Shown here one piece after another: positions 9,933-25,503 of a stretch of 64,000 bases of DNA. The translations under genes were made by a program, and so were the position numbers. The stretch is from contig NZ_FMZF01000003.1 in NCBI RefSeq assembly GCF_900102745.1, positions 62,001 to 126,000 on the forward strand, written 5' to 3'. The first letter of the stretch is position 1. Every line of letters starts with the position of its first letter. The notes beneath the pieces were generated by a model. That model made no database searches. It saw only the letters and a list, made by a program, of their open reading frames with translations, and was not told where the DNA came from. Origin of the DNA: Geodermatophilus telluris. GTDB lineage: Bacteria; Actinomycetota; Actinomycetes; Mycobacteriales; Geodermatophilaceae.

Positions 9933-10673
9933 TCACTTGCGGCCGGGCGTCCAGTCCATGCCCCAGCCGTAGGTGCGGTCGAGGACGTCCTGGCCGCCGT
10001 GCACGTAGCGCACCTCGCGGTTCACGACGAGCTCCCCGCCGCGGTTCTCCAGCAGCGCGATGGCGCAGATCCGGGCGCGGGGGTCGTGCTCGTCGAGGCG
10101 CACCTCGATCTGCGGCCCGCTCGCGGGGTACATCGTCACGACGGCGTCGGCCTGGCCCCAGTTCGGCACGCCCTCATAGATGAGCGCGAACACCAGGATG
10201 CGGCGGATCAGCGCGGTGTGCTGCAGGTCGATGAGCAGGTTCTCGCCGCCGCTGACGGCCCCCGAGCGGTCGTCGCCGTCGAGCCACGCGACCGACCGGC
10301 CGTCGCCCAGCGAGTGCTGCCCGCGGAAGGCGTTGCCGAGCGCCTGGATGACGCCCTTGGACCCGTCGGCGTACTCGTAGAGGCAGCCGAGGTCCAGGTC
10401 GATCGCGCCGCCGCCGGCCGCCGAGGCCAGCCGCTTGAGGAAGCCGCCGCCCCCGCCGCCCGCGGGCCTGGAGTTCCAGTTGAGGTTGACCCTCAGCACG
10501 CCGGTGGTGCCGGCCGTCTTGGTGAGCGAGACCGACGGGGCCGCCTTGGTCAGCGACACCTTGCCCAGGTTGACGCCGCCACCCTGCGGCGGGGCCGGGG
10601 GCGGGGGCGCCTGCGGCGGCGGCTGCTGGGGCGGCGGTGCCGGGGACTTGGGGCGCTTCGTGTAGTCGACCAA
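9933..10673 (-). CDS. TerD-family protein with Pro-rich N-terminus
   Basis: A 246-residue TerD/CABP-type protein. Residues 1-30 are a Pro/Gln-rich tail; a GGVNLGKVSLTK strand opens the TerD fold, followed by a Gly-rich insert. The core IDLDLGCLYEYADGSKGVIQALG holds the acidic positions that bind calcium in TerD proteins. The C-terminal HGGQDVLDRTYGWGMDW is typical of the branch. The TTG start at 10673 is set by GAGGAGGG. It is separate from the terD at 23528-24109 and forms a unit with the hydroxy-acid oxidase gene. Confidence 0.9.
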   Translation of the reverse strand: MVDYTKRPKSPAPPPQQPPPQAPPPPAPPQGGGVNLGKVSLTKAAPSVSLTKTAGTTGVLRVNLNWNSRPAGGGGGGFLKRLASAAGGGAIDLDLGCLYEYADGSKGVIQALGNAFRGQHSLGDGRSVAWLDGDDRSGAVSGGENLLIDLQHTALIRRILVFALIYEGVPNWGQADAVVTMYPASGPQIEVRLDEHDPRARICAIALLENRGGELVVNREVRYVHGGQDVLDRTYGWGMDWTPGRK

Positions 10674-10693
10674 GGGGAGCCCTCCTCGCAGCT

Positions 10694-10710
10694 GACCCCG
10701 CGGCGGGGTC
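10694..10710 (-). terminator. Short GC hairpin between S9-like and terD-like genes
   Basis: A 7-bp perfect stem (GACCCCG/CGGGGTC) with a 3-nt loop and no U-tract. Weak terminator candidate or leader structure of the terD-like mRNA. Confidence 0.3.
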
Positions 10711-10745
10711 GCTGCACTCCGAGCTGCGGACGTGTCCCCCCGACC

Positions 10746-12443
10746 CTAGGGGGCGCCGCCGGCGGCGGGCAGCCAGCGGTCCCACCAGCGCAGCAGGTGC
10801 CCGAGCCGGGCCGCGCGGTCGCCGGGCCGGTCCCCCGGCAGGAGCAGCAGCTCGCTGGGCACACCGTGCCGCTGCAGCGCGGCGAACAGCCGCGGCCCCT
10901 CCCCCGGCGGGCAGTCCCGGTCGACCTCGGCGGCGACGACGAGCAGCGGCGTGCGCAGCGCGTCGAGGTCGCCGGGCAGGCTGCCGGCCGGGAGGTGCTC
11001 GACCACGGCGGCGGCCACCCGGCCGGCCCCGGCGAGCAGCCGCAGCGCGGTGCCGGCGGCGTCCCCGGCGGCCAGGACGCCGACCCGGTCGGCGTCGAGC
11101 GGGCGACCGGCCAGGGCCGCGTCGAGCAGGGCCGTCGCGGCGGGGACGTCGTCCGGGTCGCCCTGCACGACGGCGTACCCGGCCGACACCAGCGCCTGGA
11201 CGTCCTCGCGCAGGCACCACCCGCCGCCGGGCAGCACCAGCAGCACCGGGTGCGGCCCCGCGCCGGGGGGCACGGTGACCCGCCCGCCGGCCGGCGCGTC
11301 GAGGCCGCCCGCGCGGTGCAGCCGCCCGGTGGCGCCCAGCGCGCGCCCGAAGCCGGTGAGCAGCCGCCGCCGGCCGGGGGTGAGCGCCACCAGCTCCCCG
11401 GCCGACCGGTCGTGCGCGACGGTGGCGACGACGACCCCGCCGCCGGCCGCCACCCCGCGGACGGTGAACGGCCCCTCGACCAGCGTCTCGGCCGGCCCGC
11501 CGTCCAGCGGCACCCGCAGCAGCTCCACGGCGCCGTGCCGGGCGACGCCGAGCAGCGCCGCCCCTCCGGCCAGCACGGTCGCGGGCGTCTCGTCGGCGCG
11601 GGCGTCGGCCAGCAGCGGCTCGAGCGACCCGCCGGAGAGGGGCACGCGGCACAGCACCGGCCCCCCGGCGCCCCGGTCGAGACCGGCCGGGCCCAGGTCG
11701 GGGTGGGCGGTGGCGTAGAGGGTGCGGCCGTCCGGCGCGAAGGCGGGCAGCCGGCACTCGCCGCGGCCCCGGGTGACCCGCCGCGGCTCCCCGCCGGCGG
11801 CCGGGACGACGTAGACGTCGCGGACGAGGTCGCGCCCCGCGCGCGCGTGCCGGGCGGAGACGAAGGCCAGCGTGCCGCCGTCGGGCGACCACGCGACGTC
11901 GGCGTCGTCCCCGGTGCCGTCGGTCACCGCGCGCGGCGCGGGCAGGGGCACCGCGTCGTCGTCGGGGTCGCCGGGCAGGTCGACGACGAACACCCGCCGC
12001 GGCGGCCCCCCGTCCGGCCGCAGGGGCAGGCGGGTGAGCAGCCGCGGACCCGCGGCGTCCGGCGGCGGCACCCGGGCGGAGAAGGCCAGCCGGCGGGAGT
12101 CGGGTGACCAGACGGGGGCGCCCGCGCCGAGCGGCAGGTCCGTGAGCCGCCGGGGCGCGCCGCCGGCGGTGGGCAGCAGGTGCAGCTGCGCGGGCTCGCC
12201 GGGCCGCGCGGAGAGGTGGGCCAGCCACCGGCCGTCGGGCGAGAACGCGGGGGCGGAGTCGCGGGCGCCGGAGGTGAGCGGCCGGGCCGGCGCGGACCCG
12301 TCGGTGGGCACGGCCCACAGCTGGGCGCGGTACCCGTCGGCGTCGGGGTCGGGCCGCTCGACGGCGACCACGGCGATGCGCCCGTCCGGGGAGACGGCCG
12401 GCACGCCCGGGGTGCGCAGCAGGGCGAGGTCGGCGGGCCGCAT
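10746..12443 (-). CDS. S9 prolyl-oligopeptidase homologue, predicted pseudoenzyme
   Basis: A 565-residue protein with an N-terminal WD40-like propeller (repeated AFSPDGRW, VWSPDSRRLAFS, AWSPDGGTLAFVS; about residues 15-340) and a C-terminal alpha/beta-hydrolase domain. The active site is degraded. The usual GxSxG nucleophile loop reads GVLAAGDAAG, with no Ser. The usual His segment reads LLPGDRPGDRAARLG, with no His. The Asp loop (AEVDRDCPP) survives. It may bind rather than cleave peptides. A TACCCT box (12453-12458) lies 9 nt before ATG 12443. It sits between the AIM24 trio and terD. Confidence 0.85.
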   Translation of the reverse strand: MRPADLALLRTPGVPAVSPDGRIAVVAVERPDPDADGYRAQLWAVPTDGSAPARPLTSGARDSAPAFSPDGRWLAHLSARPGEPAQLHLLPTAGGAPRRLTDLPLGAGAPVWSPDSRRLAFSARVPPPDAAGPRLLTRLPLRPDGGPPRRVFVVDLPGDPDDDAVPLPAPRAVTDGTGDDADVAWSPDGGTLAFVSARHARAGRDLVRDVYVVPAAGGEPRRVTRGRGECRLPAFAPDGRTLYATAHPDLGPAGLDRGAGGPVLCRVPLSGGSLEPLLADARADETPATVLAGGAALLGVARHGAVELLRVPLDGGPAETLVEGPFTVRGVAAGGGVVVATVAHDRSAGELVALTPGRRRLLTGFGRALGATGRLHRAGGLDAPAGGRVTVPPGAGPHPVLLVLPGGGWCLREDVQALVSAGYAVVQGDPDDVPAATALLDAALAGRPLDADRVGVLAAGDAAGTALRLLAGAGRVAAAVVEHLPAGSLPGDLDALRTPLLVVAAEVDRDCPPGEGPRLFAALQRHGVPSELLLLPGDRPGDRAARLGHLLRWWDRWLPAAGGAP

Positions 12444-12473
12444 GGGCCCCCCAGGGTAGTGGAGCGGTGACTC

Positions 12474-12501
12474 CCCGCCCCGGGACGCGCGCCGGGGCGG
12501 G
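12474..12501 (-). terminator. GC hairpin after the AIM24 genes
   Basis: A 10-bp perfect stem (CCCGCCCCGG/CCGGGGCGGG) with an 8-nt loop, 22 bp past the last AIM24 stop. There is no U-run, as is common for actinobacterial terminators. Confidence 0.5.
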
Positions 12502-12522
12502 AGCCCGCTCAGTGCTGCTCGG

Positions 12523-13431
12523 TCAGTGCTGCTGTTGCTGCGCCCGCGCGACCAGCCGCTGGCCCAGCGACCCGGCCTGGGCGTTGGTCAGCAGCTGGGT
12601 CTGCGACTCCACCAGCCGCAGCACCGCCGGGTCCTCCCGGGCGACCTCGGAGGACTGCAGCAGGATCGTGCCGCTCCCGGTGAAGTCGTACTGCCGCTCC
12701 TCGCCCGAGGCCCGGCCCAGCGCGCCGGAGATCATCCCGCGGATGTTCTGCGTCATCCACTGCGCGTCGTGGTGCACCGACGGCGAGGGGCAGTCGGCCC
12801 ACCCCAGCAGCGCGTCGGGGTCGGCCCGGAACGGCGGCTCGACGAAGATCACCGGCCCGTTGGACGAGGCGATGAACTTCCCCGTGCCGATGAGCGTGAC
12901 GAAGCCCGGCACGATCGACTGCTTGAGCTCCAGCTGCGGGGAGAACGCGCAGAGGTTGTTCGCCTTGATCGTCAGGTTGCCGGCGTCGAGGTCGTAGGCG
13001 TTGAGGTCGAAGCCGCGGTCGCCGATGAGCACCTTGCCGCGCCCGGTGGCCACCACCCAGTCCTGCACGTAGACGGGGCTGGAGAAGCGGGCGGCCACCC
13101 ACGCCTGCACCGAGGTGTACTCGGTCACGGCCTCGAAGCGCACGTCGCCGTAGTAGGCGAGCATCGCGCCCTTGCTCATGAACCAGTCGCCGGCGAGCGA
13201 GACGCAGAAGACGTAGGGGTTGACGTTGTCGTCGTCCGGGAGGGTGTGCGGGTTGAGCGTCGTCCCGGTGGGGGCGGGCGGCGGCGGCCCGTAGCCGGGC
13301 GGGGGCTGGCCGTACCCGGGCTGCGGCGGCTGCCCGTAGCCGGGCGGGGGCTGGCCGTAGCCGGGCTGCGGCTGGCCGCCGTAGGGGCCGGGCTGCGGCT
13401 CGCCGTAGGGGGTGCCGGGCGGGTACGTCAT
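12523..13431 (-). CDS. AIM24-family protein with PQGY repeat tail
   Basis: A 302-residue AIM24 protein, related to the yeast mitochondrial Aim24 beta-barrel family. Residues 1-55 are low-complexity Pro/Gln/Gly/Tyr repeats (PGYGQPPPGYGQPP). The folded domain follows (GAMLAYYGDVRF, GKVLIGDRGFDLNAYDL, ending SGTILLQSSE). Third gene of an AIM24 triplet with 10-bp and 3-bp gaps. ATG 13431 has AGGA seven bases upstream. AIM24 genes often accompany terD in actinobacteria; the biochemical role is unknown, with membrane or envelope stress the leading idea. Confidence 0.88.
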   Translation of the reverse strand: MTYPPGTPYGEPQPGPYGGQPQPGYGQPPPGYGQPPQPGYGQPPPGYGPPPPAPTGTTLNPHTLPDDDNVNPYVFCVSLAGDWFMSKGAMLAYYGDVRFEAVTEYTSVQAWVAARFSSPVYVQDWVVATGRGKVLIGDRGFDLNAYDLDAGNLTIKANNLCAFSPQLELKQSIVPGFVTLIGTGKFIASSNGPVIFVEPPFRADPDALLGWADCPSPSVHHDAQWMTQNIRGMISGALGRASGEERQYDFTGSGTILLQSSEVAREDPAVLRLVESQTQLLTNAQAGSLGQRLVARAQQQQH

Positions 13432-13441
13432 GTCGCCGTCC

Positions 13442-14086
13442 TCAGAACTTCTGCTCGCTGGCCTGCACGTACACGGTGCCGTAGCCGCTGATCCGCAGCT
13501 GGAAGGCCTCACCGGAGCCGCGGCCCACCACGTCGCGGAGGCCCACCTTGGCGGCGAGGTCCACGGTGAGCTGGCCGACGTGCCCGACGTAGGCCTGCGG
13601 GTCGACGCCGACCTGGGTGCCGCTCAACTGCAGGGGGAAGGCGCCGCCGTGCGACAGCAGCGCCACCGACCCGCGGCCGTGCACGTTGGTGGTGAACAGC
13701 CCCTGCCCGGTCATGGCGCCGCCGATCGCCTGCTTGATGCCGCCCGAGCCGAGGAACTGGACGCTGGTCTGCAGGGCGGCGTCGTGCACCAGGAGCCGGT
13801 CGGCCTCGCACACCAGCGGCGCGCCGCCGTCGAGCTCGAGCACGGTGACGTGCAGGCCCTTGTAGCCGTAGAGCACCTCGCCCTGGCCCTCGGTGGCCAT
13901 CATCGGGTTGGACTCCCCCGACATCGCGGCGCCCACCATGCCGCCGATGCCGCGGCCCTGGCCGTGCACCGGGCGGAAGGTGACCTGCCCGGAGTAGCCG
14001 AGCATCGCGCCCCGCCGGGCGAGCACCGGTGACGCGGGGCCCACCCGCGCGCGCACGACCTTGCTGTTGACCTGCTCGAACGGCAC
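13442..14086 (-). CDS. AIM24-family protein
   Basis: A 214-residue AIM24 protein and the most canonical of the three: NSKVVRARVGPASPVLARRGAMLGYSG at the start, GEVLYGYKGLHVTVLELDG in the middle, and the end block GEAFQLRISGYGTVYVQASEQ. No signal peptide or membrane segment. Middle gene of the triplet, 3 bp after the preceding stop, so certainly co-transcribed. Confidence 0.9.
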   Translation of the reverse strand: MPFEQVNSKVVRARVGPASPVLARRGAMLGYSGQVTFRPVHGQGRGIGGMVGAAMSGESNPMMATEGQGEVLYGYKGLHVTVLELDGGAPLVCEADRLLVHDAALQTSVQFLGSGGIKQAIGGAMTGQGLFTTNVHGRGSVALLSHGGAFPLQLSGTQVGVDPQAYVGHVGQLTVDLAAKVGLRDVVGRGSGEAFQLRISGYGTVYVQASEQKF

Positions 14087-14089
14087 GGC

Positions 14090-14707
14090 TCAGCGCTCCG
14101 AGGACTGGACGAGCACCAGGCCGTGCCCGGTGAAGCGGAGGGAGAACGGCTCGCCGGAGCCCTCGCCCACGAGGGACTTCCAGGAGACGCCGCTGACCAG
14201 GTTCATCGAGAGCTGGCCGCGGGAGCCGACGTAGGCGTCGGGGTCGACGACGAGGTCCTGGCCGGGCGCGACCTCCAGCGCCATCACCGGGCCCTCGGAC
14301 ACCAGCGCCACCTGGCCGTGACCGGTGACGGTGGTGGTGGCCAGGCCCTGGCCGCTGGTGACGCCGCGCAGGCCGGCGAACTGGACGTCGAGGCGCAGCT
14401 GCTCGGTGTGCGCCAGGACGTGCTCGCTCTCCACGGTGAGCGTGTCACCGGCCAGGTCGACGACCAGCACGTCCATGGCGTCGCGGGCGAGGTACACCCG
14501 GCCGTGACCGGTGCAGTCCATCAGCGAGAGGCTCTCCCCGGCGACGGCGCGCTTGAGCGCCGCCCGCATGCCCCCGCCCCCGCCCATGCCGGCGTTCTTG
14601 AAGTCCACGGTGCCCTCGACGGCGACCATCGAGCCGCTGGCGGCCCGGATGCGGTCGCCCTGGAGGTCGGCGTGCAGGACGCGCTTGTGCGCGGTGAGCA
14701 GGGCCAC
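14090..14707 (-). CDS. AIM24-family protein
   Basis: A 205-residue AIM24 protein. It shares with the other two the segments GRVYLARDAMDVLVVDL, LRGVTSGQGLATTTVTGHG and PFSLRFTGHGLVLVQSSER. The start is GTG 14707, with GAGGAA four bases upstream; an in-frame ATG further upstream lacks a site. First gene of the triplet, so paralogy by tandem duplication is clear. The three products could form a hetero-oligomer; that is inference. Confidence 0.87.
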   Translation of the reverse strand: MALLTAHKRVLHADLQGDRIRAASGSMVAVEGTVDFKNAGMGGGGGMRAALKRAVAGESLSLMDCTGHGRVYLARDAMDVLVVDLAGDTLTVESEHVLAHTEQLRLDVQFAGLRGVTSGQGLATTTVTGHGQVALVSEGPVMALEVAPGQDLVVDPDAYVGSRGQLSMNLVSGVSWKSLVGEGSGEPFSLRFTGHGLVLVQSSER

Positions 14708-14800
14708 GGGTTCCTCTCGCGGACGGGTCGGGGGGACGGCGCGGGACCGTATCGGGACCCGCGGCGCGGCGGTAGCCCCCACGCCGTGGCCCGGACGGCA

Positions 14801-14831
14801 GCGGCCCCGGGGCGGGGTGCCCCGGGGCCGC
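14801..14831 (-). terminator. Strong GC hairpin downstream of the DUF475 gene
   Basis: A 12-bp perfect stem (GCGGCCCCGGGG/CCCCGGGGCCGC) with a 7-nt loop, 22 bp after the DUF475 stop. It separates that gene from the AIM24 operon. Confidence 0.6.
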
Positions 14832-14852
14832 GTCGTGCGGGAGGTGCGCCGG

Positions 14853-15965
14853 TCAGCGGCCGACGGTCACCTCGTCGCGCTCCCGCTCGGCGGCCGGCAC
14901 CTCGGCCCGCTCCCGCCGGGACTCCACGATGCTGCTGATGACCGCGGCGACGATGAACAGCAGGCCGGTCAGGCCGGTGACGTACTCGCTGATGTGGAAC
15001 CGCAGCTCGAGGATCATGATCGCGGCGAGGAAGCCGATGGCCCACATCGCGCCGTGCTCGAGGTAGCGGTACTCGTCGAGGGTGCCCTTGTCGACCATGT
15101 AGATGGTCAGCGACCGCACCCAGAAGGCGCCGATGCCCAGGCCCAGCGCGATGATGAAGATGTCGCTGCTGATCGCGAACGCGCCGATGACGCCGTCGAA
15201 GGAGAACGACGCGTCGAGCACCTCCAGGTACAGGAACGCCGCGGCGCCGGCCCCGGCCACCGCCTTGGTCGCCGTCCCGACGTCGCTGCGGGTCGTCGAG
15301 CCGCCGGTCGCGGTGACGTCGTCGGCGTCGTCGTCCTCCTCCGGCGCCTCCATGAGCTCGTTGAGCCCGCCGATGAGCAGGTAGGTGAACAGGCCGGCGA
15401 TGCCGGAGACCAGCACGGTGGAGTACTTGTCGTCGTCGGCGATCTGCGACCCGACGTAGATGACGGCCAGGGCGATGACGATCGCGAGGTAGGGCAGCTT
15501 GCCGGCCTTTGCCAGCGGCCGCTCCAGCCACGACAGCCAGTGGATCTCCCGGTCCTCGTCGAAGAGGAAGTTCAGGAAGATCATCAGCAGGAAGATGCCG
15601 CCGAAGGTGTAGATGGCCTCCGCGGCCGCCTCGACGTTCTCGCCGTAGGCCTGCTGGTCGGTGAGCGCCAGGTCCCACACCTCGGGGATCGACAGACCGG
15701 CGGTGACCGACACCAGCACGATCGGCAGCAGCAGCCGCATGCCGAACACGGCGATGAAGATGCCGACGTAGAGGAAGAGCTTGCGCCACAGCGGGCTCAT
15801 CCGGCGGAGCACCTTGGCGTTGACCACGGCGTTGTCGAACGACAGGCAGACCTCGAGCACGCCGAGGACGGCGACGGCCAGGAGGGCCGCCGGGCCGCCG
15901 AAGAACACGGCGGTGACGAGCGCGGCCACCGTCAGGAGGACGGAGAAGCCGAAGTAGCGGAGCAT
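14853..15965 (-). CDS. DUF475 (TerC-like) integral membrane protein
   Basis: A 370-residue multi-pass protein of the DUF475 branch of the TerC/LysE-like transporters. Two inverted repeats each carry the acidic membrane motif: EVCLSFDNAVVNA near residue 50 and VLDASFSFDGVIGAFAIS near 255. An acidic loop (PEEDDDADD) lies between the halves. It probably moves divalent metal ions. ATG 15965 is preferred over GTG 15983 because GGAGAGGAA sits 8 nt before it. An ECF-sigma-type promoter is visible upstream. Confidence 0.9.
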   Translation of the reverse strand: MLRYFGFSVLLTVAALVTAVFFGGPAALLAVAVLGVLEVCLSFDNAVVNAKVLRRMSPLWRKLFLYVGIFIAVFGMRLLLPIVLVSVTAGLSIPEVWDLALTDQQAYGENVEAAAEAIYTFGGIFLLMIFLNFLFDEDREIHWLSWLERPLAKAGKLPYLAIVIALAVIYVGSQIADDDKYSTVLVSGIAGLFTYLLIGGLNELMEAPEEDDDADDVTATGGSTTRSDVGTATKAVAGAGAAAFLYLEVLDASFSFDGVIGAFAISSDIFIIALGLGIGAFWVRSLTIYMVDKGTLDEYRYLEHGAMWAIGFLAAIMILELRFHISEYVTGLTGLLFIVAAVISSIVESRRERAEVPAAERERDEVTVGR

Positions 15966-16057
15966 CAGGGGGTTCCTCTCCACCGCCGGGAGGTCGGGCG
16001 GTGACGACTGGGGGGTCGACCGGGCCGGGGTCGGCCGGGAACCCGGGTCGGGGTGTC

Positions 16058-16083
16058 AACGCGACCCGGGGAGGCGGTGTTCC
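16058..16083 (-). promoter_or_regulatory. ECF (SigH/SigR-type) promoter candidate for DUF475
   Basis: On the minus strand GGAACA is followed after 17 bp by GTT, matching the published SigH/SigR consensus (GGAAT/C, N17-18, GTT). It is about 93 bp before ATG 15965. A 7-bp stem (CACCGCC/GGCGGTG) lies between it and the ribosome site. Confidence 0.4.
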
Positions 16084-16252
16084 CCGCTCCCCCGCGGGGG
16101 CGGGCACCGGGTCAGCGGCCGGGGCGCCTCCCGCCGTCCGCGCGGCCGGGCGCCGCACCGACGCGGGGCCGCCCGGCGTGGTATCCATCGGCCCCCGGGG
16201 CGTGGACGCCCCCGGCGGGCGGCGACGACGGCAGCGGCGACGGGAGGCGTGG

Positions 16253-17545
16253 ATGGCCGGGCTCGGTTCCGGTGCGGCTCCGCGCTGGTGGCGCCGCGAC
16301 GCGGACGCCGCCCGGCGCCGGGCCGCCGCGGCGCGCGAGGCGGCCGCCGCGGCCATGCTGGAGCTCGACGCCGCCCTCAGCGACCTGCCCGACGCGGTGG
16401 CCGTCGCCGAGGAGCGCGCGGAGGAGGCGGCCGCGGCGGGCGCGCGCGGAGGACGGGGCTCGCACTCCGCATCCGCCCCCGACTCGTTGACCCGTGACTG
16501 GCGGGACCTCTCCGCCCACGCCGACGCGGTCATTGGACACTATCTGCAGGCGCTTTCCAACCACGACGCGGACGCCGCGACGGAGTCGGGACCGGCCCGC
16601 CAGGCCACCGCCGAGCTCGGCCGGGCGGCCGACGCGCTGCGCGAGGTGCTCGCCCAGGTGGTGCGCTTCCGCGAGCAGTACGGCGCGGCGCTGACCGCCG
16701 CCTCGAGCGCCCGCGCCGGGGCGGCGCGCACGGTGTCCGCGGCCCGGGACGCCGTCGCCACCGCCGGGGCCGCGCTGGCGGAGGCGACCGTCGCCGGGCT
16801 GGCCGACCCCGCGCTGGACGCCGCCCTCGCCGAGGCCCGCACCGCGGCCGCGACGGCGGAGGCCGAGCTCGCCGCGCGCCACCCGGGTGCCGCCGGCGCC
16901 GCCGCCGAACGGGCGCGGCGCACCGCCGCCTCGGTCACCGAGCGGGCGCGGGCGCTGCCCGGCCGCGCCGCCGACGTGCGCCGCGGCGAGGCCTCGGTGC
17001 GCACCCGGCGGGAGGCGCTGGGCACCCGGCACGAGCGGCTGGCGCCGGTGATGAGCGAGCTGCGGCGGCGCTACCCGCTCTCGGCCTGGGCCGACGTCGA
17101 GCGGGCACCCCAGCGGGCGGCCGAGGCGCTGGCCGAGGTGGACGCCGCGCTCACCGGCCTGCACGCCGCGCTCACCGCGCCGGTGCTCGACGTCCCCGCC
17201 GCGGCCGCGCTGCTCGCCCGGGTGCGGGCGGCCGCCGGCCGGGTCGACGACGAGGTGCGTGCGGCCACCGGGCGCCTCGAGCAGCTGGACGCCGTGGCCG
17301 CGGACCCGCGGGCGCTGCTGGGCGACGTGCAGCGCGCGCTGGTCGACGCCCGCCGCTTCCTCGCCGGCCTGCCCGAGGAGCGGGCCCGCCGCTTCCGGCG
17401 CACCTTCGAGGAGCTGGCCCGCCGGCTGCCCCCGCTGGAGGAGGCGGCCCGGGCCGAGCGGCCCGACGTCGGCGCGGTGCTGCGCGAGGCGACCTCGATC
17501 GAGCGGGGGCTGGCCGGCCTGGTGCGCACCGCCCGGGCCGACTAG
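16253..17545 (+). CDS. Large Ala-rich coiled-coil protein, unknown
   Basis: A 430-residue, highly Ala/Arg/Glu-rich, almost wholly helical protein with no signal peptide or transmembrane segment. Heptad-like stretches run from residue 15 to the end and include an RRTFEELARRLPPLEEA segment. I recognise no family. GGGAGG five bases before ATG 16253 makes the start firm. It diverges from DUF475 across 287 bp and converges on the HAD gene, whose stop codon it overlaps (CTAG at 17542-17545). Location inside the Ter island suggests a structural partner, but that is inference. Confidence 0.8.
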   Translation: MAGLGSGAAPRWWRRDADAARRRAAAAREAAAAAMLELDAALSDLPDAVAVAEERAEEAAAAGARGGRGSHSASAPDSLTRDWRDLSAHADAVIGHYLQALSNHDADAATESGPARQATAELGRAADALREVLAQVVRFREQYGAALTAASSARAGAARTVSAARDAVATAGAALAEATVAGLADPALDAALAEARTAAATAEAELAARHPGAAGAAAERARRTAASVTERARALPGRAADVRRGEASVRTRREALGTRHERLAPVMSELRRRYPLSAWADVERAPQRAAEALAEVDAALTGLHAALTAPVLDVPAAAALLARVRAAAGRVDDEVRAATGRLEQLDAVAADPRALLGDVQRALVDARRFLAGLPEERARRFRRTFEELARRLPPLEEAARAERPDVGAVLREATSIERGLAGLVRTARAD

Positions 17546-18360
17546 GCCCGGGCGAGCAGCCAGCGGACGATCTCCTCGCCGGCCGCCGCGCCGGTGGCCG
17601 CGGTGACCGCCACCCGCGCGCCGGTCCAGCCCTGCTCGTGCAGCTCGCCGTGCGCGGGCCGCACGGCGGCGTCGGCGGCCAGCAGCATCGGCGCGTCGAG
17701 CAGGCTGTCACCGGCGCACAGCAGCCGCGGCGCGGGGCCGCCGGCGGTGAGCAGGCGCCGCAGCCGCAGCAGCCCCGCCGCCTTCGACAGCCCGGCCGGG
17801 ACGAGGTAGACCTTGCGGCCCTGCACCGACAGCGTCGCCCCGGCGGCGGACGCGGCGGCCGCGGTGCCGGCCAGCCAACCGGCCGGGATCGCGTCACGGG
17901 AGTGCGCCACGAGGTAGCAGAACAGCCCCTCGGCTGCGCGGACGGTGCGCACCCACGGCTCCCCGGCGACCGCCTCGAGCAGGCCGAGCAGCTCCGGCAG
18001 CGGCGCCGCGCGCGCGGCCACGCCGGCCGCCCAGTCGTCCCAGCCCGGGTCGCGGACGCCGTCGGCGAGCAGCACCCCGCCGTTGCCGCACAGCGCGTAC
18101 CGGGGCACCACGGGCAGCCGCACCCGCTCGTACTGGGCCACCGTGCGGGTGGTCACCGGGACCAGCAGCGCCCGTCCGGCCAGCTCGGCGAGCAGCGCCC
18201 ACGAGGCCGGGGTGGCGTGCGACAGGGGGGCGCCGTCGAGGTGCTCGACGACCTCGAGGCCCGCGGTGCCGCCGGCCGCGGCCGCGGAGTAGATGAGCGT
18301 GCGGTCGAGGTCGACGGCGGCCACGGTCGTGGGCACGGTCGCCGGCAGCACCGCCGTCAC
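17542..18360 (-). CDS. HAD-superfamily phosphatase of the Ter-linked module
   Basis: A 272-residue HAD hydrolase. The nucleophile motif DLDRT is at residues 17-21; TTRTVAQ gives motif II, K in GRKVYLVPAGLSKA motif III and CAGDSLLD motif IV. It resembles sucrose-phosphate-phosphatase-like (Cof-type) enzymes. The GTG start overlaps the stop of the StiP gene by 4 bp. In the Ter-linked biosynthetic operons described by Anantharaman, Iyer and Aravind (2012), a HAD enzyme is a regular member and presumably dephosphorylates the nucleoside-like product. Confidence 0.88.
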   Translation of the reverse strand: MTAVLPATVPTTVAAVDLDRTLIYSAAAAGGTAGLEVVEHLDGAPLSHATPASWALLAELAGRALLVPVTTRTVAQYERVRLPVVPRYALCGNGGVLLADGVRDPGWDDWAAGVAARAAPLPELLGLLEAVAGEPWVRTVRAAEGLFCYLVAHSRDAIPAGWLAGTAAAASAAGATLSVQGRKVYLVPAGLSKAAGLLRLRRLLTAGGPAPRLLCAGDSLLDAPMLLAADAAVRPAHGELHEQGWTGARVAVTAATGAAAGEEIVRWLLARA

Positions 18361-19481
18361 CGGTCCACCGGCCGGATCAGCCCCACGCAGGAGTAGGGCA
18401 GGTCGGGGACGTCGACCAGCGGCACCCCGCGGGCGCGGGCCAGCGCGGCGACGTGCCGCAGGTCGGCGGCGCGGTCGGGCCGCACCAGCACCTGCCAGGG
18501 CACCCGGCGCAGCAGCACCCGCGTCGTCTCCCCCACCCCGGGCTTGACCAGGTGGACGTCGGCGATGCCGTGCGCGGCGGCGATCCGCTCCACCGCCGCC
18601 CACCCGGCCCAGGTGGGCGTGCGGGCGCCGGCGGGCACGTCGTCGGCGGGCGGGACGGCGGGGAAGGCGGCGGCCACGGTGTCGACGAACCGCGCGGACA
18701 CGTCGGCGGGGGCGAGCTCGGCGTAGTACTTCGCGCCGTGGAACATGCCGGGGCCGATGAGGTCGTCGCGCAGCACCGTGCGCGACACCAGCCCCGACAC
18801 CGTGCTGTTGAGGCAGGCGCTCGGGATGAGGAAGTCGTCGCGGGTGCCGTGCAGCTCGGTGCACGAGCCGGGGTCGGCGAGGACGGCGAGCCGGTCGTCG
18901 AGGGCGGCGTCCTCCGGGTGCGCGGCGACCCACCCGGCGACGGCCGCGGTGAGCTGGCGCTGGATGGCGCCCTTACCGGTCCAGCCGTCGACGAAGCGCA
19001 CCGCCGACGCCGGGTGGCGGGCGAGCACGTGGGCCAGGGCCACCTCGTCGATCCCGCGGCCGCGGATGATCGAGATCGTGTAGTGCGGCACGTCGACGCC
19101 GCGGGAGGCCCGGAACCAGCGGCGCAGCAGCACCCCGACCGGGGTGCCGGCGCGGGCCAGGGAGACGAGCACCGGCGTCTCGCCCTGCGCGGCGGCGGCG
19201 TCCCACACCAGCTCGCCGACCCGGGCGACGGCGTCGGCCAGCCGGCCCGCGGACGCCTCGAGCGCCGCGTCGAAGAGCGCGAGGTAGGCCGCGTCGGGCT
19301 GGTACTCGACCGGCAGCATCTCCGAGTAGTGGGTGCCCGACTGGATGGCCTCCTCGCGGTCCTCGGTGCCGCGCTCCAGCGCCACCGCCGACAGGTCGGT
19401 GAGCAGCCAGGTCACCTCCTCCGGCGGGTAGGAGCCGAACCGCCCGGGGACGGCGGGCGCGAGGGCCTGCACGGCGGTCAC
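18357..19481 (-). CDS. StiP/PRTase-like protein with C-terminal PELOTA domain
   Basis: A 374-residue protein of the StiP family (annotated elsewhere as a cysteine-protease StiP domain; originally described as PRTase-like). Landmarks: FGSYPPEEVTWLLTDLS, the block EREEAIQSGTHYSEMLPVEY (here DREEAIQSG), SLARAGTPVGVLLRRW, PHYTISIIRGRGID, FVDGWTGKGAI and SACLNSTVSGLVSRT. The last ~90 residues (VHLVKPGVGETTRVLLRR) fit the PELOTA RNA-binding fold. It overlaps both neighbours by 4 bp. The catalytic role is unproven. Confidence 0.85.
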   Translation of the reverse strand: MTAVQALAPAVPGRFGSYPPEEVTWLLTDLSAVALERGTEDREEAIQSGTHYSEMLPVEYQPDAAYLALFDAALEASAGRLADAVARVGELVWDAAAAQGETPVLVSLARAGTPVGVLLRRWFRASRGVDVPHYTISIIRGRGIDEVALAHVLARHPASAVRFVDGWTGKGAIQRQLTAAVAGWVAAHPEDAALDDRLAVLADPGSCTELHGTRDDFLIPSACLNSTVSGLVSRTVLRDDLIGPGMFHGAKYYAELAPADVSARFVDTVAAAFPAVPPADDVPAGARTPTWAGWAAVERIAAAHGIADVHLVKPGVGETTRVLLRRVPWQVLVRPDRAADLRHVAALARARGVPLVDVPDLPYSCVGLIRPVDR

Positions 19482-20755
19482 GGGGCCGGCTCCGCGACCG
19501 GCACGGGGACCAGGTGCACCGTGCGGGCGGCGTACGGGCGCAGCGCCTGCACCAGCGGCGCGCAGTCGGCGGCCGGGGCGTCCACGACCACGACGACGTC
19601 GTCGGCGCGCAGGTCGGCCCAGCGACCACCGGCGGGGACGGCGGCCGGGTCGGTGAGGTTGTGCACCCGGGAGAGCCGCTCGGGGTCGTCGGGCGCGGGG
19701 AAGGCGAGGCTGCGGCGCAGGGCGTAGCCGGGGTCGTCGGCGGCGTGCACGGGGCTCCGGGTGGTCGACTGGGTGGTCACGGGGACGCCGGGCAGCCGGC
19801 CGGCCACCCGCGCGGCGACCACGGTGGGCGCGTGCATGAGCTCCTCCGTGCCGAGCACGAGGACGCCGCGGCTGTCGGCCAGCGCGGGGGCGAGGGCGGC
19901 GGCCACGGTGTCGGCCGCGGCGTGCACGGCGGCGGTGCCGGCCGGGGTGAGGCCGTGCCGCGCGGTGGTGGGCACGCCGGCCGGCCACAGGCCCTCGTGC
20001 ACCACGACGGCCCCCGGCGCACCGGCGGGCGCGGGCGCCGGCGGGGGCAGCGCGGCGCGGGCGGCGGCGGCCCGCCCGAGGACGTCCGCGGGCAGCACCA
20101 GCTCGGCGGTGAGCACCGCGGCGACGTCGACGCGCACGTCCAGCGCGGCGGCCCGCTCGGCGAACGCCCGCCGGGCGGCCGCGGTCCGCGCGTCGAGCAG
20201 GGTGGCGACGACGTAGCGCTCCCGCGGCCAGCGCGCCTGCAGCTCGGCGACCGTGTTCAGCGCGGTGCGCCCGCTGGTCAGCTCGTCGTCGACCAGCACC
20301 AGCGCGCCGGGCACGTCGAGGGTGACCGGCCCCGAGGGCTGGAGGGCGTGCGCGACGGCGTGCGAGTGCTCCTCCTCGAACGCGGCGGCCACCGGGACGC
20401 CCGGGTGCAGCCGGCGGGTCGTGTGCAGGTAGGCCGCGCCGAGCCGGGCGGCGGCCGCGTGGCCGAGGCCGGTCGCCGTCTCGCAGTAGCCGACGACCAG
20501 GCCGGGGACGGCGCCGCCGAGGACGGCGGCCACCGCGTCGCCCACCGCCGCCCCGGCGCCGAGGACCTCCTCCGGCGCGACCGGCACGTGCTTGCCCAGC
20601 ACGCGGGAGACCACGAGGTGGGCGCGGCGCGGGTTGTCCCGCAGCGCCAGGCCGCACAGCGCGGCGAAGCCGGCGGGGTCGCCGGCCACGCCGACGCCGA
20701 GCAGCGCTCCGACACGTCCGCCGAGGCCCGCGGCACCCTGCAGGGTCGCCGTCAC
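19478..20755 (-). CDS. Phosphoribosyltransferase with TRSP domain
   Basis: A 425-residue protein. Residues 1-210 form a PRTase with GYCETATGLGHA and the PRPP-binding loop LVDDELTSGRT (about 154-164). The C-terminal part carries the TTQSTTRSP signature of the TRSP domain, which always follows this PRTase type. Predicted to join a base or base-like group to PRPP. Coupled by ATGA/GTGA overlaps to the lyase upstream and StiP downstream. Confidence 0.9.
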   Translation of the reverse strand: MTATLQGAAGLGGRVGALLGVGVAGDPAGFAALCGLALRDNPRRAHLVVSRVLGKHVPVAPEEVLGAGAAVGDAVAAVLGGAVPGLVVGYCETATGLGHAAAARLGAAYLHTTRRLHPGVPVAAAFEEEHSHAVAHALQPSGPVTLDVPGALVLVDDELTSGRTALNTVAELQARWPRERYVVATLLDARTAAARRAFAERAAALDVRVDVAAVLTAELVLPADVLGRAAAARAALPPPAPAPAGAPGAVVVHEGLWPAGVPTTARHGLTPAGTAAVHAAADTVAAALAPALADSRGVLVLGTEELMHAPTVVAARVAGRLPGVPVTTQSTTRSPVHAADDPGYALRRSLAFPAPDDPERLSRVHNLTDPAAVPAGGRWADLRADDVVVVVDAPAADCAPLVQALRPYAARTVHLVPVPVAEPAP

Positions 20756-21948
20756 GAGCGCCGGGCCTCCCCGGCCGCGAACACCTCGGCCAGCCGGCGC
20801 TGGCCGGCCGACAGCAGGTCGACCAGCGCGGCCTCGTCAGCGACGACGCCGTAGACGGCGGCCCGGCGGCTGACCAGCTCGGCCCACAGCGCGTGCGGCC
20901 CGATCTCGTTCATCCGGCCGCGGCCGGACACCGCGATGCCGCCGCGGCCGCGGGCCGTGAGCACCTCGAGGGCGTCGTCGTACTCGTCGCGGGAGACGGT
21001 GAGCAGCGCGTTGACCACCGACACGTGCGACGGGTGGATCACCGTCTTGCCGAGCACGCCGTTGGCCTTGTCCAGCGCCACCTCGCGCATCAGGCCGTCG
21101 AGGTCGCCGTCGATCATCCGCTGCCGCAGCGGGCCCTCGTGCTGGTCGCTGAACGGTGTGGAGCGCAGCTGCGGCTTGAAGAGCCGGGGGCCGGGGATGT
21201 GCTCCCACACCGCGCCGGTGACCACGTGCTCGCCGCCGCGGGTGAAGCGGTTGACCACGTCGGCCAGGCAGTCGCGGACGACGGCGACGTCCCAGATGGT
21301 CGTGTCGCGGTCCCGGCGCAGCCCGAACAGCCCCGACAGGTCGGTGCCGCCGACCCGCAGGCACAGCACGTGCTCGCGGTGCGCGGCCACCACCGCGGCG
21401 AGCGCGGCCAGCGCCCCGGCGCGGGTCTCCCGCCAGGCCAGGTCGGCGGTCTCGAGGATCGGCATGCCGTAGAGCGGGTGGCCCGACGCGGCGCTGACCT
21501 CCGCGACCGCCGCCAGCATCGGGCCGAGGGTGGCCGCGGTGGCCTTGGGCAGGCTGAAGCCGGTGAGCCGGGCGAGCGCCGGGCCCGCGGCCAGCGCGAT
21601 CGAGCGGATCTGCTCGGGGGTGCGCACCCGGACGAACAGCAGCGGCAGGTCCGCGCCGTCGGCGGCCCGCTCGTCGACCCGCTGCAGCGCGGCCACCACG
21701 TTGGCCTCCGCGGCGGGGACCTCGGCGTGCGGGATGGCGTCCTCCAGGCACCACACCACGCTGGTGGCGCCGACCGAGGCCGCCCGCGCGGCGTCGGCGT
21801 CGAGCGCCGGCCGGGTGCCCGGGCTGTAGAGCGTGGCGCCGAGGGCCAGCGCGAGCATGCCGCGCGGGGTGGCCGGGCCCACCTCCCCCGGGGGGACGGC
21901 GAACAGCCGCTCGCGGTCGTCGTCGGTCAGGTACGCGAAGTGGCGCAC
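20752..21948 (-). CDS. CitE-like (HpcH/HpaI) C-C lyase of the Ter-linked module
   Basis: A 398-residue TIM-barrel enzyme of the citrate-lyase-beta/HpcH-HpaI superfamily. Visible blocks are LYSPGTRPA, VVWCLEDAIPH (metal acidic), LFVRVRTPEQI, FSLPKA, PILETADL (catalytic Glu), LRVGGTDLSGLFG and GKTVIHPSHV. It probably makes or breaks a C-C bond in a small acyl or keto-acid unit used by the module. GTG 21948 with AAGGGA six bases upstream is favoured over longer frames. First gene of the coupled four-gene run, 59 bp after the TerD-vWA gene. Confidence 0.9.
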   Translation of the reverse strand: MRHFAYLTDDDRERLFAVPPGEVGPATPRGMLALALGATLYSPGTRPALDADAARAASVGATSVVWCLEDAIPHAEVPAAEANVVAALQRVDERAADGADLPLLFVRVRTPEQIRSIALAAGPALARLTGFSLPKATAATLGPMLAAVAEVSAASGHPLYGMPILETADLAWRETRAGALAALAAVVAAHREHVLCLRVGGTDLSGLFGLRRDRDTTIWDVAVVRDCLADVVNRFTRGGEHVVTGAVWEHIPGPRLFKPQLRSTPFSDQHEGPLRQRMIDGDLDGLMREVALDKANGVLGKTVIHPSHVSVVNALLTVSRDEYDDALEVLTARGRGGIAVSGRGRMNEIGPHALWAELVSRRAAVYGVVADEAALVDLLSAGQRRLAEVFAAGEARRS

Positions 21949-22007
21949 GGTCGTTCCCTTCCACCCGCTGCTGGATGTGGGTCCTGGGGTGCCGGCGGGC
22001 CGGCGGG

Positions 22008-23360
22008 TCAGCGGAGCAGCAGCCCCTGGGCGCGCGCCCGGCGCAGCCAGTCGGGGTACTCGGTCATCAGCCGGTCGAACAGCGCGTCGTCGCTGATCGG
22101 GCGGCGCCCCATCAGGTCGTCCTGGTCGACGGCGAAGAAGTCGGCGTTGTCGGTGTAGCGGCCCTCGAGGTCGTCGAGGCGCTGCAGGTAGGAGAACTGC
22201 CGCTCCGGGCCGATCCCCATGAACTGCCAGAACACCGGCTCGTACGACGCCGACCGGATCTGCCGGGTCGCCACCGACTTGTCGCTGGGCGCGCCGTCGG
22301 TGAGGAACATGACGTAGACCGGCACCTGCGCCGGCTGCGGCTCCACCCGCTCCCGGCTGTCGCCGAAGTACGCCTGCCGGACGGCGGCCATCGCCGCGCC
22401 GTAGCGGGTGTCGTACTCCAGCGGGTACTGCCGCGACAGGTCGGCGATGTACTGCTGGTGGCCCTCCAGGCGCAGCCCGGGCTCGGGGCGGTGCACGTCC
22501 TTGCCGAACAGGAAGACGTCGACGACGCCGTCGTCGTCGAAGCGCAGCCCCAGTGCGAGCACCCGCTCGGCCAGCCGCTGCACGGCGCCGGCGCGATAGA
22601 GGGCGGCCATCGAGCCGGAGATGTCCAGGACCAGGGCGACCCGCGCGGTGTGCTCGCCCAGGCCCCGCTTCTCCAGGCTGACGCCGGCGGTCTTGACCAG
22701 GCTGAGCATCCGCGGCGCGGAGGTCGCGAGCCTCTTCTCCAGGTCGACCAGCCGGCGCTTCTCCGTGCTGACCGGCGGGGTGCTGGGCGCGGGCGGGGCC
22801 GGCGGAGCGGCGGGCGCGGGCTCGTCGTCGATGCTGACGCCGACGTCGGTGGCCATCCCGGCCAGGCCGGTGGTGAACCCCTGGCCGACCGCGCGCACCT
22901 TCCACTCCGTCCCGCGGCGGTACACCTCGGCGAAGACCAGCGCGGTCTCCGGGCCCGCGGCCAGCTCGCAGCGGACGGCGGCCGCGCCGCCCTCGGCGCC
23001 CACCTCCACGGCGAGGCCGGAGAGCCCCCCGAAGGTGCCCGGCCCGTCGAGGGAGGCGCCGATGACGACCTTCTCCACGTCGGCCGGCAGCGCGGCGGGG
23101 TCGATGCGCACCTGGTCGACGGTGGCGCCGCCGCGGGCGGACTTGCCCAGGTGGCGCACCGCCCCGCCGGCGCCGGAGGGCTGGTTGTAGAAGACGAAGT
23201 CGTCGTCGCTGCGGACCCGGCCGGCGCCGGTGGTGAGGAACGCCGAGAGGTCGGCGTCGACCCCGGGGGCCGGGGTCCAGGTGAGGGTGACGACGACGGG
23301 GCCGGTCAGGCCGGCCTGGGCCAGGCCGACGTTGCCGCCCGGGGTGAGGACGTGGACCAC
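22008..23360 (-). CDS. TerD-vWA fusion protein
   Basis: A 450-residue protein. Residues 1-177 form a TerD domain ([39 protein letters not shown]), 180-200 a Pro linker, and 235-450 a von Willebrand A domain with the MIDAS motif DISGSM at 246-251 and FLTDGAPSD further on. Such proteins are proposed metal-dependent scaffolds for Ter complexes. The start is uncertain. GTG 23360 has no ribosome site; a 14-codon ORF with a strong site ends 12 bp before it, so either coupling or a frameshift is possible. Confidence 0.9.
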
Positions 23361-23371
23361 GCGGCGGCCGC

Positions 23372-23416
23372 TCAGCCGCGGGGGCGGGGGGTGGACGGGC
23401 GGCCGGGCTCGGCCAT
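23372..23416 (-). CDS. 14-codon ORF leading into the TerD-vWA gene
   Basis: ATG at 23416 follows GGAGGT by four bases; the frame encodes [14 protein letters not shown] and stops at 23372. Its strong ribosome site contrasts with none for the GTG of the main gene. One base added or lost in its C-runs would fuse the two frames. It may be a coupling leader or a broken N-terminus. Confidence 0.4.
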
Positions 23417-23460
23417 GGGGACCTCCGGGTCTCGGGGGCTGGTGCAGCGCAGGACGGCGG

Positions 23461-23490
23461 CCCCGGCCGGGCGGTGCCGCCCGGCCGGGG
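23461..23490 (-). terminator. Distal hairpin after terD (14-bp stem)
   Basis: A perfect 14-bp GC stem (CCCCGGCCGGGCGG and its complement) with a 2-nt loop, the second hairpin reached by transcription past terD. No U-run. Confidence 0.55.
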
Positions 23491-23491
23491 T

Positions 23492-23522
23492 GCCGGGCCC
23501 GGACGCGCGGTCCGGGCCCGGC
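23492..23522 (-). terminator. Proximal hairpin after terD (13-bp stem)
   Basis: A perfect 13-bp stem (GCCGGGCCCGGAC and its complement) around GCGCG, 5 bp past the terD stop. Together with the next hairpin it forms a tandem terminator or attenuator between terD and the TerD-vWA operon. Confidence 0.6.
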
Positions 23523-23527
23523 GGGGC

Positions 23528-24109
23528 TCAGCCGACGTTGACGCCGAAGTCCTGGGCGATGCCGCGCAGGCCGGAGGCGTAGCCCTGGCCCACCGCGCGG
23601 AACTTCCAGTCGGCGCCGTTGCGGTAGAGCTCGCCGAAGACCATGGCGGTCTCCACCGAGGCGTCCTCGGTGAGGTCGTAGCGGGCGATCTCCGAGCCGT
23701 TGGCCTGGTTGACCACGCGGATGAAGGCGTTGCGGACGGCGCCGAAGTTCTGCTTGCGGCTGTCGGCGTCGTAGATGGACACCGGGAAGACGATCTTCTG
23801 GCAGTTCGGCGGGACCGAGGCCAGGTCCACCTGGATGACCTCGTCGTCGCCCTCGCCCTGGCCGGTGAGGTTGTCACCGACGTGCACCACCGAGCCGTCG
23901 GGGCTGCGCAGGTTGTTGAAGAAGACGAAGCCCGAGTCGTCCGGGGTGACCTTGCCCTCGGGACCGATCATGATCGCCGACGCGTCGAGGTCGAAGTCAC
24001 CACCGGAGAACGTGTTGACGTCCCAGCCGAGGCCGACGTTCACCGCGGTCAGACCCGGGGCCTCCTTGGTCAGCGAGACGTTCCCGCCCTTGGAGAGGCT
24101 GACACCCAT
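23528..24109 (-). CDS. terD: TerD, calcium-binding stress protein
   Basis: A 193-residue canonical TerD. It starts [20 protein letters not shown] and carries the acidic calcium sites in [10 protein letters not shown] and [31 protein letters not shown] and the end block [17 protein letters not shown] are all family-typical. Single-domain TerD proteins act in tellurite and metal stress and in envelope or differentiation stress in actinobacteria. ATG 24109 has GGGAG nine bases upstream. A promoter may be TTGCCG, 17 bp, GTATCC, about 200 bp before the start. Confidence 0.95.
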
Positions 24110-24234
24110 CTGTTTGGACTCCCATGTCGCGTGCGGATGCGGGCCGGCGGTCGCCGCCCCGCCGAGACGCCGGCCGGGCCGGCGCTGCCGGGCGACGGCG
24201 CGGGCGCGGAGCGCCCGGGCGTGGCCCCCGGCAC

Positions 24235-24271
24235 CGCTCCGCGGGACGCCGGTCGGGCGCCCCGCGGAGCG
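24235..24271 (-). terminator. GC hairpin between terC and terD
   Basis: An 11-bp perfect stem (CGCTCCGCGGG/CCCGCGGAGCG) with a 15-nt loop, 72 bp beyond the terC stop on the minus strand. Likely ends the terC transcript. Confidence 0.5.
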
Positions 24272-24342
24272 GACGTGTCTCGGATACTGCCCGACGAGCA
24301 CGGGCGGCAACAGGTTCCCCGGCCTCCTGGCCAGGGCGGCGG

Positions 24343-25503
24343 TCAGACGCCGCCGCGGCCGTCCCCGGGGTCGCGGGAGCCGGCCGGCGCCGGGGTGACC
24401 GCGCGGTCGCCGCGGTCGCCGCGGTCGGTGCCGTCGACCGGGACGCCGTCCCCGCGGACCTCGCCGGCGACGCCGGGGCCGGTGCTGCCGACCGTCGGGG
24501 TGCCGGTGCTGCCGGCGCGGGCCGCGGCCTCCCGCTCGTCGCGGCGGCTGCGGGCGAGGCTCGCGACCGTGGTGACCAGCAGGGTGAGCACGATGACCGC
24601 CAGCGACAGCCAGGTCGGCACCTCGGGGATCACCGTGACGTGCTCGCCGCCGTTGATGAACGGCAGCTCGTTCTCGTGCAGGGCGTGGATGAGCAGCTTG
24701 ACGCCGATGAAGCCGAGGATGACCGCCAGGCCGTAGTGCAGGTAGACCAGCCGGTCGAGCAGTCCGTCGATGAGGAAGAACAGCTGGCGCAGGCCCAGCA
24801 GCGAGAAGGCGTTGGCGGCGAAGACGAGGAAGGTCTCCTCGGTCAGGCCGAAGATGGCCGGGATCGAGTCGACGGCGAAGAGGATGTCGGCGCTGCCGAT
24901 GGCGACCAGGGCGATGGCCAGCGGGGTGATGTACCGCCTGCCGTCGAGCTTCGTCGTCATCCGGTCGGAGTGGTACTCCTCGGTGGTCGGGACGATGCGG
25001 CGGACCAGCCGGAGGAAGCCGTTCTCCTTGAACTCCTCGTCCTCGTCACCGCTGGCCCGCGCCTGGGCGACGGCGGTGTAGATGAGGAAGGCACCGAAGA
25101 GGTAGAAGACCCAGCTGAAGTTCTCGATCGCCGCGGCACCGAGGAAGATGAAGACGGTCCGCAGGATGAGCGCGAAGGCGATGCCGAACAGCAGCACCTT
25201 CTGCTGCAGCTCGCGGGGCACCGCGAAGCTCGCCATGATCAGGACGAAGACGAACAGGTTGTCCACCGAGAGGCTCTTCTCGGTGATGTAGCCGGCGAAG
25301 TACTCACCGCCGTACTGGCCGCCGGCGAAGACCCACACGCCGATGCCGAACACGATGGCGATGGCGACGTAGATCGTCGACCAGGTGGCCGCCTCGCGCA
25401 GCGACGGGGCGTGCGGGGTGCGCACGTGGCCGACGAAGTCGAAGACGATCATGGCGACGATCGCGCCGACCGTGATCGCCCAGACCCAGAAGGGGACGTC
25501 CAA
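24343..25503 (-). CDS. terC: TerC-family membrane metal exporter
   Basis: A 386-residue TerC protein with about nine membrane helices. The paired acidic membrane motifs are [10 protein letters not shown] (near residue 78) and [15 protein letters not shown] (near 205). The last ~70 residues are a long soluble Gly/Asp/Arg tail. TerC proteins export Mn2+ (MeeF-type) or act with TerD in tellurite tolerance. The start is TTG 25503, seven bases after GGAGGT. The Mn2+ riboswitch directly upstream argues for manganese efflux as the working role. Confidence 0.93.

Follow-up and report, generated by a model that had tools for sequence, protein, structure and literature searches.

A Ter-linked operon encoding two predicted phosphoribosyltransferases lies in a presence/absence block of Geodermatophilus genomes

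The window, by which we mean the whole analyzed stretch of 64,000 nucleotides, is part of the 4.8-Mb genome of Geodermatophilus telluris, assembled in 12 contigs. Its reverse strand encodes a CitE-like lyase, two multidomain proteins of predicted phosphoribosyltransferase (PRTase) fold and a HAD phosphatase, which lie among Ter genes and further genes inherited together with them. The features of the locus, in window coordinates, are as follows.

9933..10673, reverse strand: TerA-like/TerD-related protein in a separate small insertion, matching TerA-like genes beside StiP elsewhere and missing in five StiP-negative genomes
12448..24540: presence/absence block, from the S9 peptidase side to the TerC C-terminal side, delimited by blastn breakpoints in five StiP-negative congeners
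12523..13431, reverse strand: AIM24 family paralogue a (PF01987), within the absent block
13442..14086, reverse strand: AIM24 family paralogue b (PF01987), within the absent block
14090..14782, reverse strand: AIM24 family paralogue c (PF01987), within the absent block
14853..15983, reverse strand: DUF475, TerC-like membrane protein (PF04332, E 6e-110), within the absent block
16001..17545, forward strand: cc514, a convergent, co-inherited coiled-coil protein without a Pfam family
17542..18360, reverse strand: HAD-IIB family phosphatase
18357..19481, reverse strand: StiP, of PyrR/HGPRT-like PRTase fold, with a PELOTA/L7Ae-like domain (PF11202, E 2e-102; PF15608, E 1e-33)
19478..20755, reverse strand: PRTase_2, APRT/XPRT-like and type I, with a TRSP domain (PF15609, E 1e-57; PF12500, E 6e-28)
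20752..21948, reverse strand: CitE-like C-C bond lyase with a TIM barrel, opening the operon (PF15617, C-C_Bond_Lyase, E 6e-104)
22008..23360, reverse strand: TerD domain with a TerF-like vWA domain, TerD-vWA (PF02342, E 2e-37; PF10138, E 2e-56)
23528..24109, reverse strand: TerD (PF02342, E 2e-82)

Re-reading of the DNA confirmed the 4-bp overlaps described by the initial annotation at all three junctions of the four enzyme genes; all three are GTGA, and none is the ATGA that had also been proposed. The HAD, StiP-PELOTA, PRTase_2-TRSP and CitE-like genes all start with GTG. The 59-bp gap between TerD-vWA and the operon was also found as described (the TerD-vWA stop codon ends at 22008, and the CitE-like gene starts at 21948), but position 23416, given as the end of the region, corresponds to an out-of-frame ATG: TerD-vWA starts with a GTG at 23360, at the same place as in Geodermatophilus obscurus, with whose StiP that of the window shares 90% identity. 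Overlaps of four bases are by themselves common in bacteria; the operon goes beyond chance because all four genes keep an identical order and strand in 75/75 actinomycete loci that hold them all. These loci belong to a set of 80, of which 78 could be scored for gene fusion and 63 were long.

Comparison within the genus shows that the operon is part of a larger unit. Five StiP-negative congeners keep the order UvrB, TerC, second TerC paralogue, S9 peptidase and acetamidase; at this otherwise syntenic site, blastn breakpoints show that everything from AIM24a through TerD is missing (window positions ~12448-24540, i.e., ~12.45-24.54 kb), as is the TerA-like interval at 9934-10767. The absence of DUF475 and AIM24 in the negative genomes was read at this block site. 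As the whole block is missing, the unit comprises about 12 genes: TerD, TerD-vWA, the four enzymes, cc514, DUF475, three AIM24 genes and the TerA-like gene. The TerC gene at 24343-25503 remains in the block-negative genomes and thus lies outside the unit. The four enzyme genes sit in a 12-kb stress-response block, which is gained or lost as a whole among soil actinomycetes. Block-negative genomes were seen to carry the second, tandem TerC paralogue (L161:4206-5662, with matching sites in L162-L165) where the positives hold the Ter block. The block markers thus offer a natural comparison in one genus, with 13 species carrying them, 13 lacking them and an empty site mapped in five, and this comparison would allow a direct search for the product of the operon.

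Co-occurrence with terD across genomes, on which the initial annotation had made its reading depend, is almost perfect in the phylum and complete within the genus. StiP was matched in 20 of 396 actinobacterial genomes, one of which (G210) was excluded by sequence as a PyrR; TerD is present in 19/19 of the remaining StiP-positive genomes and in 1/377 others (Fisher 1.7e-31, a value inflated by relatedness). StiP and TerD also occur in the identical 13 of 26 Geodermatophilus genomes, a match with a chance of 1e-7 under independence; because the genomes tested are related, both p-values overstate independence. Full-length CitE is found in the same 13 congeners, and cc514 in 12/13 StiP-positive versus 0/13 StiP-negative ones. 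Beyond the genus, cc514 is present in 56/63 long actinomycete loci, and TerD-type genes lie within 10 kb of the StiP operon in 60/63. The other three loci belong to Frankia or Pseudofrankia, whose genomes carry TerD; in Frankia QA3, TerD lies ~17 kb from StiP. The cc514 protein is alanine-rich and recurs beside actinomycete StiP operons, its Streptomyces versions having a hydrophobic N-terminal stretch.

In 2012, Anantharaman, Iyer and Aravind reportedly predicted that Ter-linked biosynthetic operons make a nucleoside-like metabolite, and the initial annotation assigned the four genes to this group. The assignment is borne out at the family level: PF15617, PF15609 with PF12500, and PF11202 with PF15608 are families defined around Ter operons. 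The exception is the HAD protein, a diverged HAD-IIB member that belongs to no Pfam family built for Ter operons; it has no Pfam match, a weak HAD-IIB match in NCBIfam and a match to the solved structure PDB 6cj0, labeled "trehalose phosphatase" (E 4e-14). The cluster furthermore contains a nucleobase-type PRTase with a HAD phosphoesterase, TerD-type ligand-binding proteins, a DUF475/TerC membrane component and a TerF-like vWA protein. The PADLOC defence set gave no match for eight proteins of the locus, and PHROGs gave none either. The G. telluris locus thus belongs to the Ter-linked systems of the 2012 prediction, which concerns a nucleotide derivative and was restated in 2021 (PMC7824862); a Klebsiella study likewise took the cluster as a putative biosynthetic operon with an unassigned product (PMC8115787). 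None of the Ter-operon papers found in this analysis identifies the product.

Active-site loss in several enzymes, named in the initial annotation as a finding that would refute its reading, was not seen: the expected residues of CitE, PRTase_2 and HAD are intact when the proteins are aligned with distant relatives from plasmids and phages. The CitE-like protein keeps T.R / LED / GK..IHP, and of its segments GATLYSPGTRP, LEDAI, ETAD, GGTDL and GKTVIHP, those that the malyl-CoA lyase alignment covers match the motif residues of that enzyme, with the core kept in the relatives. PRTase_2 conserves the PRPP-loop motif VDDE..(S/T)G.T, and the HAD protein keeps D17/D19/T21, T70, K193, D218 and D222 in the pattern DxDxT / T / K / GD...D. 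The StiP loop VDGW.GKG is conserved, but it has one acidic residue instead of the two of a canonical PRPP loop.

Structure models show that the operon would encode two proteins of type I PRTase fold, PRTase_2 being APRT-like and StiP PyrR/HGPRT-like. The AlphaFold2 model of PRTase_2-TRSP (pLDDT 89.1, pTM 0.91) is closest to APRT through its first domain, PRTase_2 (VIA Z 14.0, rmsd 3.5, 173 residues aligned), and the PRTase domain fills the list of its structure matches. For the StiP-PELOTA model (pLDDT 92.6, pTM 0.92), Foldseek and VIA-align superpose residues ~65-265 on PyrR and HGPRT (Z ~10.3, rmsd 3.5, 151 aligned). The C-terminal domain resembles L7Ae, Nhp2 and Snu13 by Foldseek, with a probability near 1.0. 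Identity of StiP and PRTase_2 to PyrR/HGPRT and APRT, with which the StiP N-domain and PRTase_2 respectively share their fold, is ~12-18%; the additional TRSP and PELOTA domains and the single acid of the StiP loop set the Ter proteins apart. A kinship of StiP with UPRTase, suspected from its RAG and VD motifs, gave no hhalign alignment, and a profile comparison of StiP with PRTase_2 gave no match.

These models bear on the name of StiP. According to the Pfam description of PF11202, NCBI product names and plasmid annotations, StiP is a cysteine protease, which would make the operon partly proteolytic; we consider this very improbable. No invariant StiP cysteine is found in either 8 or 31 aligned sequences, plasmid and phage relatives included; the StiP model superposes on PRTases, with no protease among the matches listed; the StiP HMM also matches a PyrR gene (G210); and hhalign pairs RAGTPVG and VDGWTGKG of StiP with two loops of a PyrR, those for pyrophosphate and PRPP (E 0.002). 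The lack of an invariant cysteine suggests that the widely copied name is wrong. Many plasmid proteins (in L042, L043 and PF11202 annotations) are labeled "cysteine protease StiP" despite the predicted PRTase fold.

An ATP-grasp gene, which occurs in such operons, had been reported missing from the window, with a check of the remaining genome proposed. PF15632 (ATPgrasp_Ter) was rejected as a test because it is too broad alone, matching 13/14 control genomes; two full-length profiles, A4 and A9, were used in its place. With these, a phylum search at 1e-10 found no ATPgrasp_Ter orthologue in the G. telluris genome, the window included; a partial match of 1.5e-5 at C3:385156 lies inside another, long ORF and was discarded. 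Neither ATPgrasp_Ter near the operon in the 80 actinomycete loci nor any other conserved biosynthetic gene able to replace it and shared across genera was found. Full-length relatives exist in 7/11 sampled Streptomyces-type genomes (genus g8; L136-L142), remote from and unlinked to the StiP locus. We therefore treat the ATP-grasp enzyme as accessory and not as defining for the Ter-linked nucleotide-derivative system, as plasmid versions usually have it, the phage ME3 version has none nearby, and the restatement of 2021 (PMC7824862) does not name it. The locus narrows the Ter unit to a definite gene list, of which ATP-grasp is no fixed part in actinomycetes. One prophage-like contig (L126:1302-15366) has CitE, PRTase, StiP, HAD, a TM protein and ATP-grasp, and after these come genes for macro-domain, vWA and ADP-ribosylglycohydrolase proteins; with no TerD within 9 kb, it holds a Ter-free operon copy beside ADP-ribose enzymes. 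Having the actinomycete gene order with ATP-grasp just downstream, it is possibly an intermediate. A link of the operon to the macro-domain and ADP-ribosylglycohydrolase genes was dropped, being repeated in other loci only by one ADP-ribosylglycohydrolase match.

Homologues occur in 2,566 plasmid records, of which many come from hospital bacteria, and three phage records hold them as well. The IncHI2 plasmids (L042, E. coli pXGE1mcr) and a Pseudomonas plasmid (L043) resemble the window in having PRTase_2-TRSP, StiP-PELOTA, CitE-like and HAD genes beside TerD/TerC/TerB genes; they place ATPgrasp_Ter first, followed by PRTase-HAD-StiP-CitE, whereas in the window CitE comes first, HAD last and ATP-grasp is lacking. 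Acinetobacter phage ME3 (PMC7824862) likewise has PRTase, HAD, StiP, TerD and DUF475 in one cluster, but no CitE-like or ATP-grasp gene in the 21 kb covered, and its StiP is 31% identical to that of the window. Genes annotated as NAD synthetase and Appr-1-p processing lie near this cluster (L044:1031-3362). The Streptomyces Ter locus of the fused type encodes the four activities of the window operon in unchanged order and also has DUF475, TerD, TerA-like and cc514 genes; it differs in that the two PRTases form one polypeptide and that the TerD-vWA-like gene is on the opposite strand. One uninterrupted reading frame encodes PRTase_2-TRSP and StiP-PELOTA in 59/78 actinomycete loci, nearly all of them Streptomyces, whereas in Geodermatophilus the two are split yet coupled by a 4-base overlap. 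A quick tree with long branches places the window sequence with Geodermatophilus and calls for several gains or losses of the fusion. This analysis adds the all-or-none block and the site that lacks it, shows cc514 and AIM24 to be inherited with the operon, describes an actinomycete gene order in which ATP-grasp is missing and a PRTase fusion that is frequent, and brings PRTase-fold evidence against the protease name; some of these points may already be in the 2012 work.

From genes, folds and motifs we predict that the four genes form the biosynthetic arm of the actinomycete Ter stress module. We consider it fairly probable that the two PRTases carry out a PRPP-dependent synthesis of a ribosylated small molecule, with C-C chemistry by the CitE-like enzyme and dephosphorylation by HAD, and that this molecule serves the Ter membrane module under stress. 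The gene unit, folds, motifs and co-inheritance are observations, to which substrates, order of steps, product and its use are added by inference. The APRT-like PRTase_2 and the StiP PRTase would act sequentially or as a complex, as their being one polypeptide in most Streptomyces suggests, and would draw on PRPP to attach ribose-5-phosphate to a base or a base-like acid, which the CitE-like enzyme may make or trim. HAD would then take off the phosphate, and TerD-family proteins at the membrane may sense the resulting nucleoside-like product, or use it, under stress. Against a pathway of four enzymes, CitE is missing in phage ME3, and the metagenome-assembled genome (MAG) L038 shows only PRTase-like and StiP-like genes; with CitE or HAD missing in some relatives, the chemistry cannot need all four enzymes everywhere. 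The single acidic residue of the StiP loop speaks against a PRPP pathway, and the L7Ae-like domain suggests an RNA role for which a metabolite pathway does not account.

That role is central to the main rival, in which StiP is an RNA-binding enzyme or regulator, combining PyrR-like and k-turn-binding L7Ae-like domains, and the operon acts under stress by modifying or monitoring RNA instead of making a free metabolite. PyrR, an RNA-binding attenuator, is the closest fold of the other StiP domain, and residues K313, P314, E318, T320, R321, R325 and R326 of the Pelota domain are invariant; the near-certain matches to L7Ae, Nhp2 and Snu13 also speak for this reading. However, PRPP loops are kept in both PRTases, and the partners CitE and HAD are small-molecule enzymes. 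We find this rival rather unlikely. Somewhat less likely still, the enzymes recycle damaged bases or phosphosugars that oxidative or metal stress produces, and they are inherited with Ter because both serve the same stress niche, not because of a signal: APRT-like and HGPRT-like folds are typical of salvage enzymes, and HAD-IIB and CitE-like enzymes would suit scavenging, but the operon families are separate from housekeeping salvage enzymes, and all-or-none inheritance with TerD, TerD-vWA, DUF475, AIM24 and cc514 suggests a dedicated circuit. A bolder form of the preferred biosynthetic reading, to which we give as little weight as to an RNA function, is an ATP-grasp-free second-messenger circuit, in which the PRTase pair, one member also binding k-turn RNA, would make a new ribosylated signal read at the membrane by TerD-family, AIM24 and cc514 proteins; if true, the Ter response would include cc514 and AIM24 as components not recognised so far.

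Three distant actinobacterial MAGs (L038-L040) encode a StiP-like gene with TerD and no detectable CitE or HAD; a PRTase_2-like gene was detected in L038 only, and AIM24 also occurs in L038-L039. This gene set is possibly a minimal form of the system.
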